The translations under genes and the position numbers were made by a program. The notes beneath the pieces were generated by a model, which worked only from the letters and a program-made list of their open reading frames with translations, searched no databases and was not told the origin of the DNA. DNA of 64,000 bases. It comes from Thermoplasmatota archaeon. Lineage in GTDB: Archaea; Thermoplasmatota; Thermoplasmata; Thermoplasmatales; Thermoplasmataceae. Shown piece after piece: positions 30,453 through 38,736 of the stretch. The stretch lies in contig JAMCUL010000004.1 in NCBI GenBank assembly GCA_023381355.1, positions 1 to 64,000 of the forward strand, in the 5' to 3' direction. The number at the start of each line of letters is the position of its first letter. Positions within the stretch are counted from its first letter, which is position 1.

Positions 30453-31589
30453 TCATGAAGGATACCTCTCCTGGAACATTTCCCTGATCTCATCAATGCA
30501 TTTATAATATCCCCTCAATGATCTCATTGACCATTTATCATTTATCTCTGCAGCTCTCAGATAAATGATCTTCATTGCACTCTCTTCTGACGGCATTGAA
30601 TCAATGATCTTGATCCTTCTTCTTATCTCCTTGTTCATTCTTTCTATTAGATTTGTTGAATGTATTGATCTCCTTATGGATTCAGGATAGTCATGATACT
30701 TCAACAGAACATTCAGATTTTTTTCCATGTTGTATAATGGCCTTGGATATTTATTTGACCATTTATTCTTGAATTCATTGAATCGATCAATGGATTCATT
30801 TCTCGTTCTTGAAAGGAATATATTTTTCAGATCATTATCTATTTCATTTCTATCCTGCACTCTCACATGTGTTTCAAAATTCCTTGATGCATGTACTGTG
30901 CATAGCTGGAAATCAGCTCTTGGATATATCTGCCTTACCTCTTCCTCAATTCCAGGCAATCCATCTGCTATGAATAACAATGGTTCCTCAACACCTCTTT
31001 CATGCAGATCCATGAGAACATTCCTGTATGCAATATGATTCTCAACAGGATTCATGTAGAATCCCAGTATTTCATAATTACCAGTTTCCCTTATACCCAT
31101 TGCAAATATTACACATTCCTTCTGTACTGTATCCCTTCTGAGAGAGAAGAACATTGCATCCATGAATATGGCGATATATCTTCTTTCCAATGGCCTTGAT
31201 CTCCATGTGTTGATCTCTGTAACTGTTATTTCTGTTATTCTTGATATTGTTGACTTGCTGTACTTGTTGTGGAATAATTCTTCAAGTATTTCGGCCATCT
31301 TCCTTGTTGAAATCCCCTTTGAATACATGGATACAACAAGATCATCAATACCAACATTGCGTTGATATTTCTCAAAGAGAGCTGTCTGGAATTCATTATT
31401 TCGATCCCTTGGTATTTTCAGATCATTGATCTTTCCGTATCTTGTTCCCAGGTCTCTTTCATAATATCCATTTCTCGATCCGTTATTCTCTTCAAGGTAT
31501 GCCTGTATCTCTCCTTTCATGAGAGATTCCATGAACTCCTTCACTGTCTTCCTTACAATTTCCGATATCTTTTTATCAAACTCTTCCAT
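30453..31589 (-). CDS. IS256-family (mutator-type) transposase
   Basis: A 378-residue DDE transposase. Catalytic residues are recognisable as D144 in FMDAMFF, D209 in IADGLPG and E316 in STNLIERMNKEIRRR; the C-x2-H (CTVH, 230-233) typical of the family lies between. The N-terminal region (1-130) is the DNA-binding part with the NGYYER/GTRYG pattern shared by IS256 relatives. The frame is unbroken and full length, so the element may still be mobile. Its stop codon lies directly at the left terminal repeat, and about 90 bases separate its start from the right repeat. Confidence 0.95.
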   Translation of the reverse strand: MEEFDKKISEIVRKTVKEFMESLMKGEIQAYLEENNGSRNGYYERDLGTRYGKINDLKIPRDRNNEFQTALFEKYQRNVGIDDLVVSMYSKGISTRKMAEILEELFHNKYSKSTISRITEITVTEINTWRSRPLERRYIAIFMDAMFFSLRRDTVQKECVIFAMGIRETGNYEILGFYMNPVENHIAYRNVLMDLHERGVEEPLLFIADGLPGIEEEVRQIYPRADFQLCTVHASRNFETHVRVQDRNEIDNDLKNIFLSRTRNESIDRFNEFKNKWSNKYPRPLYNMEKNLNVLLKYHDYPESIRRSIHSTNLIERMNKEIRRRIKIIDSMPSEESAMKIIYLRAAEINDKWSMRSLRGYYKCIDEIREMFQERYPS

Positions 31590-33104: not shown

Positions 33105-35021
33105 TTGAGGAATGGAATAATTAACGATAAAGAGGAGTCGCGGAAAATAAAAATTGGGGCTCAATTCAAAAAGGAGATCATATATTTTCTATTTGCAGTG
33201 CCTGCTCTTGTTTATGTCATAGGTTTATCAATAGTCCCGGCAATAACTGTAGTTTATGACAGTTTTATCGGAAAGAATGGTTTTACACTTCAGAATTATG
33301 CCGTCCTTCCACACTATAGCCTGTATAGCGCAATTGAAAACACGCTTATTGTCAGTCTGGGTGCCTTACTTATCCAGATCACGATAGCTCTTGCTATTGC
33401 AATGATACTGGTAAAGCCAATCAAAGGAAAAAAAGTTTTTTCCTCGATAATTATTATACCGCTTGGAATCTCTACCATTGTAAGTGCATATGTATTTTCA
33501 ATAATATTCCAGGCCGTAGGTGGCTATGCAAACTCTGCCCTTGTCGGCCTTGGTTTACACCCAGTGAACTGGTTCTCATCAGGCATTTCCTCGCTGGGCG
33601 TTGTAATGTTTTCAGATTTCTGGAAAAACACGCCACTTGTTGCACTTATACTTTTCGGAGGCCTTTCTTCAATTTCCCCCAGTCTTTACGAGGCTGCCGC
33701 CGTTGATGGGGCTGGTGCAATTAGAAGATTTATCCATATAACTCTTCCAAATCTCGCGCCCATTATTTCGATCGCACTCCTTGTCAGAGGGGTAAGTGAG
33801 TTCAATATATTTGCGCTTCCCCTAGTAATAATCGGATACCATCCAACAATACTGAATACACTGATATATGAAAATTATTTGTCTATAACAACAAGGAATA
33901 TATCTTATGCGGCCGCAACGGTTCTTCTGGCCATCATCATGATTTACTCAATCATAGTAGTTAAACTTGGAGGTGCGAAAGATCAAATCACCTCTGACAA
34001 TGCTTATAAAAAGAGAAGAACCATTCGAGGATATTGGAATAAAAATTTAGACCATGGGAAAACCGTTACTTGTGAACCAAAGAGTTTTGTGAAAATCAAC
34101 AGGACTCGTAAACCTGACACACACAATAAATTGTTCGTGAAAGCATTAAGCCAGAAAGTTAACAGTTTCTTCGCAAACAATAAGGTCAAAAAAGGTCTTA
34201 CCTATCTTTCCGTTGCAGTTATCGCCCTGATTTTCATATATCCATTATGGGTATTGATCATCTATGTGTTTCAACCATCATACTTAACATATGGCTCGGT
34301 CTATCCCAGCCAAATCCCACTAGGTTTTACACTGAGGCATCTGCTAGATGCATTCACCAAAGTTGATCTGATTGGCCCACTAATAAGAAGTGTGGAGGCT
34401 GCGTTTCTTGTAGGTGGAATAGCTCTTGTCATAGGAATACCAGCAGGTTATGGTCTCTCAAAATTAACCTCAAGATTATCGAATAAATTAATAATTTTCC
34501 TATTCATAGTAAATATGATGCCGGGGCTTGTCATTGCAATTCCCATCTCTGCGTACTTCTTCGACATACAAAATTTCATCAATAGTTACCACATACACCT
34601 ATCTTTAGATAATACCTTCCTCGGAGTGGCGCTGGCACAGGAACTGGTCGTACTCCCGTTAACTACTTTCATTACCCTGAGTGCGTTCAGGAGCCTGCCA
34701 AGAGATTTGGAATTCCAGGCCAGAGTCGATGGAGCCTCTCTTGGAAAAACCTTTACAAAGGTACTCATCCCACTTTCAAGAGTTCCCATAATGGTAGCAT
34801 TCCTGCTGGCTTGGATGACATCCTGGGATGAGTTTACTTATGCAGTTATAATTGCCCCAATAAAATCAACTTTTCCTGTTGCTTTATATAACTATGTTTC
34901 CAGGAATCTTCCACAATCTGCCACATTTGCGCTTGTCGCAACGATTCCGGTTATAATTTTGGCAGTCATTCTTGAAAAATATCTAAAGGGACAGTACTTA
35001 TCTGGAGGTCTTGTAGGATGA
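33105..35021 (+). CDS. Fused ABC sugar-transporter permease (MalF-MalG-like)
   Basis: A 638-residue protein carrying two complete binding-protein-dependent permease domains. Domain 1 (about 25-290) has the coupling-helix motif EAAAVDGAGAIRRF...LP at 196-215; domain 2 (about 365-635) has the corresponding FQARVDGASLGKTF...IPLSR at 537-559. A polar, basic linker of about 75 residues joins them. In most systems these are separate MalF and MalG subunits. About six helices per domain are visible. The fused chain would pair with two copies of the ATPase encoded next, overlapping by four bases. Substrate is probably an oligosaccharide, judged from the glycosidase downstream. Start is TTG with a GGTGAT site. 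Confidence 0.9.
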   Translation: MRNGIINDKEESRKIKIGAQFKKEIIYFLFAVPALVYVIGLSIVPAITVVYDSFIGKNGFTLQNYAVLPHYSLYSAIENTLIVSLGALLIQITIALAIAMILVKPIKGKKVFSSIIIIPLGISTIVSAYVFSIIFQAVGGYANSALVGLGLHPVNWFSSGISSLGVVMFSDFWKNTPLVALILFGGLSSISPSLYEAAAVDGAGAIRRFIHITLPNLAPIISIALLVRGVSEFNIFALPLVIIGYHPTILNTLIYENYLSITTRNISYAAATVLLAIIMIYSIIVVKLGGAKDQITSDNAYKKRRTIRGYWNKNLDHGKTVTCEPKSFVKINRTRKPDTHNKLFVKALSQKVNSFFANNKVKKGLTYLSVAVIALIFIYPLWVLIIYVFQPSYLTYGSVYPSQIPLGFTLRHLLDAFTKVDLIGPLIRSVEAAFLVGGIALVIGIPAGYGLSKLTSRLSNKLIIFLFIVNMMPGLVIAIPISAYFFDIQNFINSYHIHLSLDNTFLGVALAQELVVLPLTTFITLSAFRSLPRDLEFQARVDGASLGKTFTKVLIPLSRVPIMVAFLLAWMTSWDEFTYAVIIAPIKSTFPVALYNYVSRNLPQSATFALVATIPVIILAVILEKYLKGQYLSGGLVG

Positions 35022-36052
35022 ATGTGAAAATGGAATATCAAAACGTTAACAAGTATTATGGAAAAAAGAGAGTTCTAAATGATTTTAACCTTGAAATCTA
35101 TGAAGGTGAATTTCTGGTCATTCTCGGACCCTCTGGGATGGGAAAGAGCACATTACTCAGGACAACTGTTGGGATCGAGGAAATGAGTTCAGGAAAGATA
35201 ATCCTTGATGGAGAGGATATAAGCCGAAAGCCACCAAATAAGAGAAACATAGCAATGGTATTCCAGAACTATGCTTTATATCCAAATATGACAGTTTATA
35301 AAAACATAGAATTCCCCCTTAAGATGGCTAAAATAGATCAGAGAACAATCAGGGAAAAGATTGAAACCATTTCTGAAACTTTGAAGATTTCAGAAGTTCT
35401 TGGAAGAAATGTAAACCTACTTAGTGGCGGTCAAAAACAGAGAGTTGCCCTTGCAAGAGCACTCGTCAGAGACCCAAAAATATTTCTGCTTGATGAGCCT
35501 CTTAGCAACCTGGACGCAAGGGTCAGATACACTGCAAGGGGAGAACTAAAGAAAATCCAGAAAGAACTGGGTCATACCTTTGCCTACGTAACCCACGATC
35601 AGACGGAAGCGGCTACCCTTTCAGATCGCGTGGCAATACTGAGAGATGGAAAGATAGAACAACTTGGAAACTTTGATGAGATATTGAATGAGCCTAAAAC
35701 TAAGTGGGTAGGTGATTTTGTTGGAGAATATCCGATGAATTTCATAGATGGTAACCTATTGAACATGAAGGACAGGATTATTGGGTTCAGATCTCACTGG
35801 ATAAAAGAAGGGAAACAGATAAATGCACGCGTTGACTGGTGTAACCATGAAGAAGACAGGTACATTGTAAGATGTTTTTTGAATTCAAACGACAATCTAG
35901 ACCCCGATAATAGACCTGCAGTTGTTGTAAAGTCAGATAAGCCCTTCCAGTACAATGATCCAATTTCTTTCTCTCTTGCAAGGTACGACATATACAGCAA
36001 AGATGGAGACTTAATAGGAACTAGCAATGGCAATGAAAAGGAGAAAAACTGA
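35018..36052 (+). CDS. ABC sugar-transporter ATPase (MalK/UgpC-like)
   Basis: A 344-residue nucleotide-binding subunit. Walker A GPSGMGKST (about 38-46), Q-loop VFQNYALYPNMTV, signature LSGGQKQRVALARAL (about 134-148), Walker B IFLLDEPLSNLDA and the H-loop THDQTEA are all present. The C-terminal part (about 240-344) is a shortened, weakly conserved regulatory domain compared with MalK of about 370 residues. The start ATG overlaps the permease stop, and its end overlaps the glycosidase start by 26 bases, a tight operon. Confidence 0.95.
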   Translation: MNVKMEYQNVNKYYGKKRVLNDFNLEIYEGEFLVILGPSGMGKSTLLRTTVGIEEMSSGKIILDGEDISRKPPNKRNIAMVFQNYALYPNMTVYKNIEFPLKMAKIDQRTIREKIETISETLKISEVLGRNVNLLSGGQKQRVALARALVRDPKIFLLDEPLSNLDARVRYTARGELKKIQKELGHTFAYVTHDQTEAATLSDRVAILRDGKIEQLGNFDEILNEPKTKWVGDFVGEYPMNFIDGNLLNMKDRIIGFRSHWIKEGKQINARVDWCNHEEDRYIVRCFLNSNDNLDPDNRPAVVVKSDKPFQYNDPISFSLARYDIYSKDGDLIGTSNGNEKEKN

Positions 36053-37199
36053 GGACATTTACGGTGAAATAAAGGAATTGAAGTCTGATGCTGGATGGCT
36101 CTATGCAGGACTTCCTAAATTCAGGTCACTCTTTGGGAGGGATTCAATAATATCCTCGCTTCAGCTTCTTGACTTTGATGATTCGATTGCAATCGAAACT
36201 TTGAAGATTTTGTCAGAGACTCAGGGAATTGTAAATGATAGGAAAACGTTTGAGGAGCCTGGAAAGATAATACATGAAATCCATGAACAATCAGAGGATT
36301 TGAATTTCAGGCAAAAGGAAGTAGAGTGGCTTGCCAGAGGGAGAAATTACTTCTCGATTGACAGCACTCCATTATATGTTATTCTACTGGTAGAAGAGAT
36401 GAAGAGAAGAAAGGAACTTATTCCCATCTTCAAGGAAAGTTTACTGGGAGCCATGAGATGGATTATCGACTATGGTTTGATTGGAAAATATATTTCTTAC
36501 AATAAGCCCCCCGATGGAAGTGGCCCTCAATCCATGAGCTGGAGAGATGGTATTGGGGATGTATTGAACAGGGTAACATCCCCTGTTTCGGTTATAGGTG
36601 TACAATCCTATACGTACGAGGCACTTAGTGAGGGATCAAGATTTATGGGTGGCACAGATCCTGAACAAAACCTGACCTACAGGATTAAGGGTATACTTTC
36701 TGCGCTGAAAGGACATATTTATGATGATTTTACCGATGAAGATGGAGATTTTCCCGGTATAGCTATAGGCGGAGATGGCGTTTTAAGCAAATCTATAACA
36801 AGTGAACCAGGACATTTAATATTTTCAGGAATTCTGGATCGAGAACATGAAAAAATCATCATAGATAGATTGTTTGAAGAGGATATGCTGACACAATATG
36901 GAATAAGAACCATGTCAAACAAGGATCCGTACTTTGATCAAAAAGCATACCAGAGAGGATCAATATGGCCTAATGATAACTGGATAATTGCATATGGACT
37001 CATGAAGAGAGGCTATAAAAATGAGTTTACAGACATCCGGAACCGAATGCTTGAATGCTCAGAGAAAATGGGCGGTTTACAGGAATTTATTGGGGTGGAC
37101 AGGGATGGCAATATCATCAACCCAGACAGGATGAGGATAAGACCGTGTTATCCCCAGGCTTGGGCAACTGGTTCAGAATATTATTTCAGAACACATTGA
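36027..37199 (+). CDS. Glycogen-debranching-type glycoside hydrolase
   Basis: A 390-residue protein that matches the catalytic (alpha/alpha)6 barrel of amylo-alpha-1,6-glucosidase-type enzymes. It opens with AGLPKFRSLFGRDSIISSLQLL (residues about 27-48), then EEPGKIIHE, SIDSTPLY (about 112-119), MSWRDG, and near the end the RGSIWPNDNW segment, which normally holds part of the active site. The N-terminal beta domain found in many family members is missing. No signal peptide, so it acts in the cytosol on sugars imported by the linked ABC transporter. Precise linkage cannot be predicted. Its start overlaps the ATPase gene; ATG 36033 is an alternative. Confidence 0.82.
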   Translation: MAMKRRKTEDIYGEIKELKSDAGWLYAGLPKFRSLFGRDSIISSLQLLDFDDSIAIETLKILSETQGIVNDRKTFEEPGKIIHEIHEQSEDLNFRQKEVEWLARGRNYFSIDSTPLYVILLVEEMKRRKELIPIFKESLLGAMRWIIDYGLIGKYISYNKPPDGSGPQSMSWRDGIGDVLNRVTSPVSVIGVQSYTYEALSEGSRFMGGTDPEQNLTYRIKGILSALKGHIYDDFTDEDGDFPGIAIGGDGVLSKSITSEPGHLIFSGILDREHEKIIIDRLFEEDMLTQYGIRTMSNKDPYFDQKAYQRGSIWPNDNWIIAYGLMKRGYKNEFTDIRNRMLECSEKMGGLQEFIGVDRDGNIINPDRMRIRPCYPQAWATGSEYYFRTH

Positions 37200-37314: not shown

Positions 37315-38736
37315 TTATGATCCCTCTACAGGTGCGTACATCCCTGCTTCATAATTGTTCGCTACTGACTGACTATAGAATTCAACTAGATAGTTGTACA
37401 TGTCAGTATTGTAGTGAGTCATTAGCGCAGGTATCTGGGTATAACTTGTAACAGATCCACTTTCAATGATCTTCACCCAGGCTTTGTCCATAATTGTATT
37501 CCACTCACTTATCCACGAGACCGGACTTCTTAGGAATACTCCTCCATTGATAGCTGCGAGAGAAGTGTTGGCTACAGTATCATTGCTGGAGTACATCTTC
37601 ATTCCCAGTTTGGTTAGATTTACAGATCCGGGCCACTGATAATACATCATTGAATATGTATTGGAAGCAAGGCCGGTATAAGTTGCCCAGTATGATGTCT
37701 TGTAATCAGGTGAGAAATACGCACTTAAATTATATATATATTCCATAGCCTGAATATCTCCTGTATCATTGAACAGCATTGGATTTCCACCGAACTGCAC
37801 CATCCACTGATACATTTCAGTAGGTGTGCTTGCGCCACCGTGGCCCTGGAAATTAATCATTCCCTGACCATACTTCTTGTCAAGTGTCTTGGCGTCTGTC
37901 ATAAGTTGGGTATAGGTTGTTGGAACTTGTGATATTCCAGCGTTTTTGAGTGCTGTATAATCTACCCAGACAAGTGGTATATTAACCAATTGAGTAAGGA
38001 AGTAAACACCACCGAAAACCTGTGTTTCGTAATTGTTCAGGTTCGTTATGGTGCTGATGGTGCCTTCCCCTGCAGTAATTGTTGTTGGGTTAATTCTTGC
38101 AAGGTAGCCATCGTAAAACAAAACTCCCACATCAAGATTATCTATTGTCATAACCACATTGGCACGAGAATTGCTTGTAACTAATGAAGATACTTCTTCC
38201 ACGATTGAAGATGCTGTTATGAAACTGACCTGCACATTTATGTTCGGGTACGTCTTCTCAAAATTACTTATTACCCCACTAACATATGACTGATCTGCAG
38301 CACTCATACTTGTATAGTAGGAGACAGTTACAGTTGCGTTAGATGGACTGTATATGCTGGGTACACTGGAACTGGGTGTGCTTGTGTATGAACCCTTATC
38401 CACCGGTATGAAGCCTGTTGCTGCTTCGCAATTCTTCTGCACCAGAGGATTCATAAGATATGCCATCAACTGGGCTGATGCAGGAGGTGCAGATCCACCC
38501 TTCATCTCAGCAATGACGCATCCACCAAGAAGGTGCTCCGAATTCGCTGGGCCACTCACTCCCGTATATACATAAAGCTGCTGGTTAGATGTTGATGTAG
38601 ATGGTGCTACTAGATTCTTATAATCCAGCCCTACAAAAGTACCAACCAAGACTACAACAATAGCCACAGCAATTATGCCGATCAGGAGATTCTTATTTCC
38701 TTTTTTCGGTTCTACTGGTTTTTCCATTTCGATCAA
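37315..38736 (-). CDS. ABC solute-binding protein with relocated C-lobe segment
   Basis: A 473-residue membrane-anchored sugar-binding protein: a short basic N-terminus, one helix (17-37), then the extracellular part. Residues 52-119 look like the C-lobe stretch that family 1 binding proteins have near the end (LLGGCVIAEMK, then LMAYLMNPLVQ, then TGFIPV). The usual N-lobe beginning (ATVTVSYYTSMSAADQ, 134-149) follows only after a Ser/Pro/Thr linker. At residues 380-381 (LTKLGMK to MYSSND) the expected C-lobe stretch is missing. It therefore reads as a segment moved from inside the C-lobe to the N-terminus. Start TTG 38736, or ATG 38727. It faces the permease operon tail to tail. Confidence 0.85.
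   Translation of the reverse strand: MIEMEKPVEPKKGNKNLLIGIIAVAIVVVLVGTFVGLDYKNLVAPSTSTSNQQLYVYTGVSGPANSEHLLGGCVIAEMKGGSAPPASAQLMAYLMNPLVQKNCEAATGFIPVDKGSYTSTPSSSVPSIYSPSNATVTVSYYTSMSAADQSYVSGVISNFEKTYPNINVQVSFITASSIVEEVSSLVTSNSRANVVMTIDNLDVGVLFYDGYLARINPTTITAGEGTISTITNLNNYETQVFGGVYFLTQLVNIPLVWVDYTALKNAGISQVPTTYTQLMTDAKTLDKKYGQGMINFQGHGGASTPTEMYQWMVQFGGNPMLFNDTGDIQAMEYIYNLSAYFSPDYKTSYWATYTGLASNTYSMMYYQWPGSVNLTKLGMKMYSSNDTVANTSLAAINGGVFLRSPVSWISEWNTIMDKAWVKIIESGSVTSYTQIPALMTHYNTDMYNYLVEFYSQSVANNYEAGMYAPVEGS

Follow-up and report, generated by a model that had tools for sequence, protein, structure and literature searches.

Can a solute-binding protein retain its fold and its transport role after one of its segments has moved along the chain? 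The question is raised by a gene in the window, which is the whole stretch of 64,000 nucleotides of a Thermoplasmatota archaeon that we analyzed. A first-pass annotation of this gene had proposed that the segment normally following the YYQWPG region lies at the N-terminus, as a relocated block of 68 residues (about 200 bases) that would fit back at residue 380/381. The open reading frame encodes 473 amino acids when counted from a TTG codon, and the ATG at residue 4 (position 38727) is the likelier start. The parts of the receptor, referred to below as the anchor, B, A (divided into A1 and A2) and C, and the neighboring genes are as follows.

33105 to 35021, plus strand: two importer permease domains fused in one protein of 638 amino acids (two BPD_transp_1 stretches).
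35018 to 36052, plus strand: importer ATPase, CUT1/MalK-UgpC-like (ABC_tran, 125 bits; weaker than the named equivalogs).
36027 to 37199, plus strand: MGH1-like glycoside hydrolase, a probable partner enzyme (PF22422, 47.3 bits against a cut-off of 27).
37315 to 38736, minus strand: permuted solute-binding protein gene, order anchor-B-A-C (open reading frame, Pfam SBP_bac_1 match, profile order).
38629 to 38685, minus strand: predicted N-terminal membrane anchor helix, approximately residues 18-36 (hydropathy maximum).
38347 to 38595, minus strand: relocated block B, approximately residues 48-130, with the putative LYVY strand, LLGG hinge 2, and an N-lobe strand and two helices (B profile, reinsertion scan).
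37996 to 38337, minus strand: A1, probable first part of the N-lobe, approximately residues 134-247 (SBP_bac_1 and PDB sugar-binding homology; confident model together with B).
37594 to 37983, minus strand: A2, probable first part of the C-lobe, approximately residues 252-381, ending in QWPGSVNLTKLGMK (end of profile A, LGM junction, low-confidence model).
37318 to 37593, minus strand: C, the C-terminal segment, approximately residues 382-473, directly joined to A2 (profile C follows B in canonical relatives).

The most hydrophobic stretch of 19 residues in the receptor starts at about residue 18 (hydropathy 3.13), and the predicted model places the anchor, with low confidence, in a helix at residues 13-29 of the 470-amino-acid form. 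In the Pfam search the receptor matches SBP_bac_1 with 37.1 bits (cut-off 26) over residues 150-369 only, and NCBIfam gives it no name. Its sequence and profile matches are those of type II sugar-binding proteins, and it is encoded beside two BPD_transp_1 permeases and an ABC ATPase, as in SBP_bac_1 / cluster D-I systems. By these features the receptor qualifies as a membrane-anchored maltose-type (SBP_bac_1 / cluster D-I) solute-binding protein. Cluster D-I proteins (SBP_bac_1/SBP_bac_8; the Thermococcus litoralis trehalose/maltose-binding protein 1EU8, GacH 3JZJ and NagB1) have homologous A, B and C pieces and, like the window's receptor, an anchor or secretion helix and importer neighbors of the CUT1 kind. 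They differ in the order of the pieces, which is A-B-C in cluster D-I and B-A-C here, so that the anchor enters what is normally the second N-lobe piece.

In a first search covering 60 relatives, the near ones matched the receptor end to end and the distant ones in three pieces, in the order of query residues 134-373, then 39-124, then 394-470, all in a single open frame some 470 amino acids long. When the pieces were searched separately with blastp, their order agreed with that of the whole-protein search. We then built B, A and C profiles from 22 permuted members and searched every open frame of the fetched loci with them. The profiles fall at approximately residues 51-127 (B), 134-375 (A) and 388-469 (C) of the window's receptor. 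The order B-A-C occurs in 26 non-redundant relatives, the window's protein and two near-copies included, and a further partial protein reads B-A; the order A-B-C occurs in 19 non-redundant canonical relatives. In the latter, A scores 138-304 bits and B 11-62 bits (mostly 37-62), and B always lies exactly between A and C. None of these 26 and 19 relatives is of mixed order, and the open frames of the fetched loci contain no second copy of B and no intermediate with a duplicated B. Invariant residues are found in A, B and C alike across the 22 permuted proteins, and the aromatics of YYQWPG are among the conserved ones.

We cut B out of the chain, inserted it at every third position of the remainder and scored each product against a profile of the canonical relatives. 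Reinsertion at residues 379-391 gives a sharp maximum of 384-390 bits in one continuous match, as compared with 263 bits for the partial match obtained with the native order or with B omitted, and with a median of 227 bits over all positions. Putting B back also gains an SBP_bac_8 match in the Pfam search (44.0 bits, spanning 26-320), which is not gained when B is shuffled or removed. The closest canonical relatives have the A/B junction LGM-TNS (LGM-TNSEIGVYPGPSGPVNS in the alignment of L088 and L089); in the window's chain LGMK runs into C, reading KLGMK-MYSSND, and B opens with TSNQQLYVYTGVSGPANS. Together, the shared LGM junction and the reinsertion maximum locate the junction no more than a few residues from 380/381. 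The first-pass annotation was therefore right about the relocation, as profiles and blastp pieces alike indicate, and about the site, and slightly short on the length, since B measures approximately 75-85 amino acids (225-250 bases). The anchor stays N-terminal, C stays C-terminal and B alone has moved. Judged from these alignments and profiles, what happened is the transposition of a block, from A-B-C to B-A-C, rather than a circular permutation.

Full-length colinear matches to the permuted receptor were found in 26 of 117 genomes of the order Thermoplasmatales, all of them in a single family (f1) of acidophilic archaea, and about six further genomes of this family hold permuted fragments. 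Named records with the order B-A-C include Cuniculiplasma sp. KMA_Bin18, Ferroplasmaceae archaeon UBA567 and Thermogymnomonas acidicola JCM 13583, and the order is also found in G010, a closed 1.94-Mb genome of the window's genus. The canonical order occurs in f1 and in three other families (f3, f14 and f15), and two genomes, G026 and G002, carry both kinds of receptor. Wider sampling, with 400 genomes from the class and 390 from the phylum, detected no permuted members outside f1; these two sets share genomes with each other and with the order search. In a tree built from the three pieces after arranging them in a common order, and rooted on three distant canonical proteins, all permuted proteins form one clade (support 100/100), which implies one change on the tree; its stem branch measures 0.52 changes per column. 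That the canonical order is ancestral rests on this choice of root and on the family at large. The cluster D-I order of N-lobe 1, C-lobe 1, N-lobe 2 and C-lobe 2 is violated in every clade member examined, with B before A in 26/26. On this phylogeny, B-A-C is an old and inherited block transposition with a single origin.

To which lobe does B belong? We took the domain limits from NagB1, MsBP and YesO. In NagB1 (cluster D-I), domain I comprises residues 49-162 and 330-395 and domain II residues 167-324 and 399-445, with three hinges (PMC8233162). In MsBP and YesO the N-domain sheet has the order b2-b1-b3-b8-b4, where b8 is contributed by the stretch that follows the second crossing. From family alignments and what is known of MalE, we infer that the conserved GG region of B corresponds to hinge 2. 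With this assignment the last C-lobe strand is LYVY, the hinge lies at LLGG, and what follows in B belongs to the N-lobe. Of B, only the leading strand LYVY should therefore be C-lobe, and the remainder (hinge 2, strand bn and the helices) should complete the N-lobe. The basis of this assignment is homology together with low-to-moderate-depth models, rather than a solved structure.

The models, which were built from alignments of 22 rows only, bear on this division. B and A1 alone (205 residues) give an AlphaFold2 model with pLDDT 79.3 and pTM 0.81, in which the first approximately 24 residues are poor and residues 5-14 and 18-23, around LYVY, are below 50. The strands and helices of the confident part fit an N-lobe, and the model fits the reading that B and A1 form one lobe while LYVY belongs elsewhere. 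The full-length model (pLDDT 60.0, pTM 0.60) is confident at approximately residues 70-100 and 120-200, and its C-lobe is poor, mostly below 50. With Foldseek against the PDB, the matches to sugar-binding proteins were either confined to A1 or extended loosely along the entire chain. TM-scores from this sequential fold aligner, which suits a permuted chain poorly, were low, as would be expected for such a chain but without proving it. Searching solved structures with single sequences gave few matches and did not tell the native and restored orders apart; the canonical-family profile outperformed them. The description of B as a C-lobe segment in the first-pass annotation was thus mostly wrong, since by homology to NagB1, MsBP and YesO and in the model of B with A1 only LYVY would be C-lobe. 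The tethered reach into the C-lobe that it postulated would be needed by this first strand only, and not by the larger part of B. Taken as a whole, the earlier interpretation is upheld for the relocation, its site and the order shared among related Thermoplasmatales (one family, one clade), and fails for the lobe.

These data lead to an explanation whose observed part consists of the homology of the pieces, their order, the single origin, the conservation and the operon. We consider it highly probable that the block moved once in an ancestral canonical receptor, and that fold and transport role were retained. The starting protein would have been a canonical anchored sugar-binding protein of the cluster D type, in which, in the ancestor of the receptor clade within one Thermoplasmatales family, B moved from between A and C to behind the anchor. 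A candidate route is the duplication of A-B followed by the loss of one A and one B. The three-dimensional fold would be kept: B would still give the last C-lobe strand (LYVY), cross hinge 2 at LLGG and complete the sheet and helices of the N-lobe, with a short flexible linker joining it to strand 1 of A. Hinge 1, between A1 and A2, and hinge 2, internal to B, would be retained and B would continue into A1 inside the N-lobe, while the old link from B to C would be lost and a new one made from A2 to C. The anchor would now run into a C-lobe strand, which would shift the tether from the lobe that carries it in canonical relatives to the opposite one. The canonical chain crosses between the lobes three times. 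By inference, the permuted chain would cross twice if the helix before GVFLR is C-lobe, and four times if it is N-lobe, as the NagB1 limits suggest. The receptor would still act as a Venus-flytrap that hands a sugar-like solute to the adjoining ABC importer.

Several other explanations deserve consideration. B could be an N-terminal domain without kinship to the usual segment and similar to it only by chance, with a C-terminal part that lacks any equivalent of it; its pairwise identity to canonical relatives is only about 28-36% (blastp), and the Pfam match ends at residue 369. However, the GG, VQ and G.IPV motifs of B line up with those of canonical relatives, its profile reaches 37-62 bits in most of them, always in the one expected place, and reinsertion adds approximately 120 bits at a single site. 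Unrelatedness or chance resemblance is refuted in the main by the profile order and the reinsertion scan, and we give it hardly any credence. An artefact of assembly or sequencing might be suspected in a draft genome of 24 contigs that is about 90% complete, but the order is found at full length in 26 genomes, closed ones and independent projects included. Since unrelated assemblies such as G010 and Thermogymnomonas acidicola JCM 13583 show it, we rejected this explanation, whose probability is negligible.

It is also conceivable that copies adjacent on the membrane exchange parts, B of one completing the lobe of the next, given that laboratory permutation of binding-protein lobes, as with a T. 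maritima ribose-binding protein half, yields segment-swapped dimers (PMC9815098). The linker from B to A1 is short, though, and in the model the two fold confidently as one chain. Binding proteins of the receptor's type are usually monomeric, and we regard a swap between molecules as quite unlikely. The permuted clade might instead have left transport and now serve as a sensor or a structural surface protein. The long stem branch (0.52 changes per column) would agree with this, as would the receptor gene lying on the strand opposite to the importer in many genomes; in canonical loci it adjoins the importer genes on the same strand. Against such a loss stand the constant neighborhood, with permeases and ATPase orthologous between permuted and canonical loci and often a glycoside hydrolase, and the conserved aromatics such as those of YYQWPG, so that a departure from transport appears improbable. 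The MGH1-like hydrolase that neighbors the receptor in many related loci may hint at the solute. This enzyme weakly resembles glucosylglycerate hydrolase, and our guess for the putative ligand is accordingly glucosylglycerate or a small glycoside.

Chain reordering has precedents among binding proteins. TpMglB-2 (Tp0684) is a natural circular permutant with a reported fourth crossing, for which a Type Ic / Cluster Bc was proposed (PMC4990184). Like the window's receptor, it is a membrane-tethered sugar-binding protein with a natural reordering that is kept in relatives, and in both the number of crossings may have changed. In TpMglB-2, however, N-terminal strands of a type I / cluster B fold moved to the C-terminus, whereas the receptor has kept its C-terminus and had an internal block relocated. 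A circular permutation of this type is ruled out because C remains C-terminal, the anchor remains N-terminal and the termini were not rejoined; a type I / cluster B fold is ruled out by the type II sequence and profile matches. The permutants detected with CPSARST among glycine-betaine- and molybdate-binding proteins and CysB (PMC2395249) are likewise permutations within the binding-protein fold. They are circular and separate distant groups of low identity, while our case is a block transposition with canonical sisters recognizable by sequence. The step by which domain dislocation led from type I to type II binding proteins (Fukami-Kobayashi 1999, cited in PMC9815098) also changes how strands are shared between lobes. 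As described there, it is an ancient and inferred event in which a strand changes lobe, unlike the receptor, where the chain order changes and the strands probably stay in position.

We found no earlier report of a block permutation like this one in the open-access literature searched. We are inclined to regard it as a previously undescribed, natural, clade-wide and non-circular block permutation, in which the fold would be kept and transport retained, while the tether lobe and the inter-lobe links would have changed and the hinge mechanics been altered. Accounts of binding-protein evolution usually invoke permutations and domain dislocations that are inferred from distant folds. In this case sister groups, and even single genomes, preserve both chain orders, and their sequences are similar enough to map the junction to within a few residues. 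The clade may serve as a natural experiment in which the influence of connectivity and tether position on folding and on hinge movement can be compared. A gap in annotation also becomes apparent, as NCBIfam has no name for the protein and Pfam covers it in part.

Minor observations concern the neighboring genes. Receptor and importer genes of the permuted clade (L031-L056) occur in at least three arrangements: facing, on the same strand and divergent. The fused permease is also found in one further locus (L032, 654 amino acids); elsewhere among the related loci in which both permeases could be read, each has its own gene. Frame shifts interrupt both the receptor and the permease genes in the draft genome of Thermogymnomonas acidicola JCM 13583 (L056, 9001-10271), with the order still B-A-C. 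In the window, the hydrolase gene overlaps the end of the ATPase gene, and a Mutator-family transposase (PF00872, 315.7 bits) lies at 30453-31589, close to the transporter genes.
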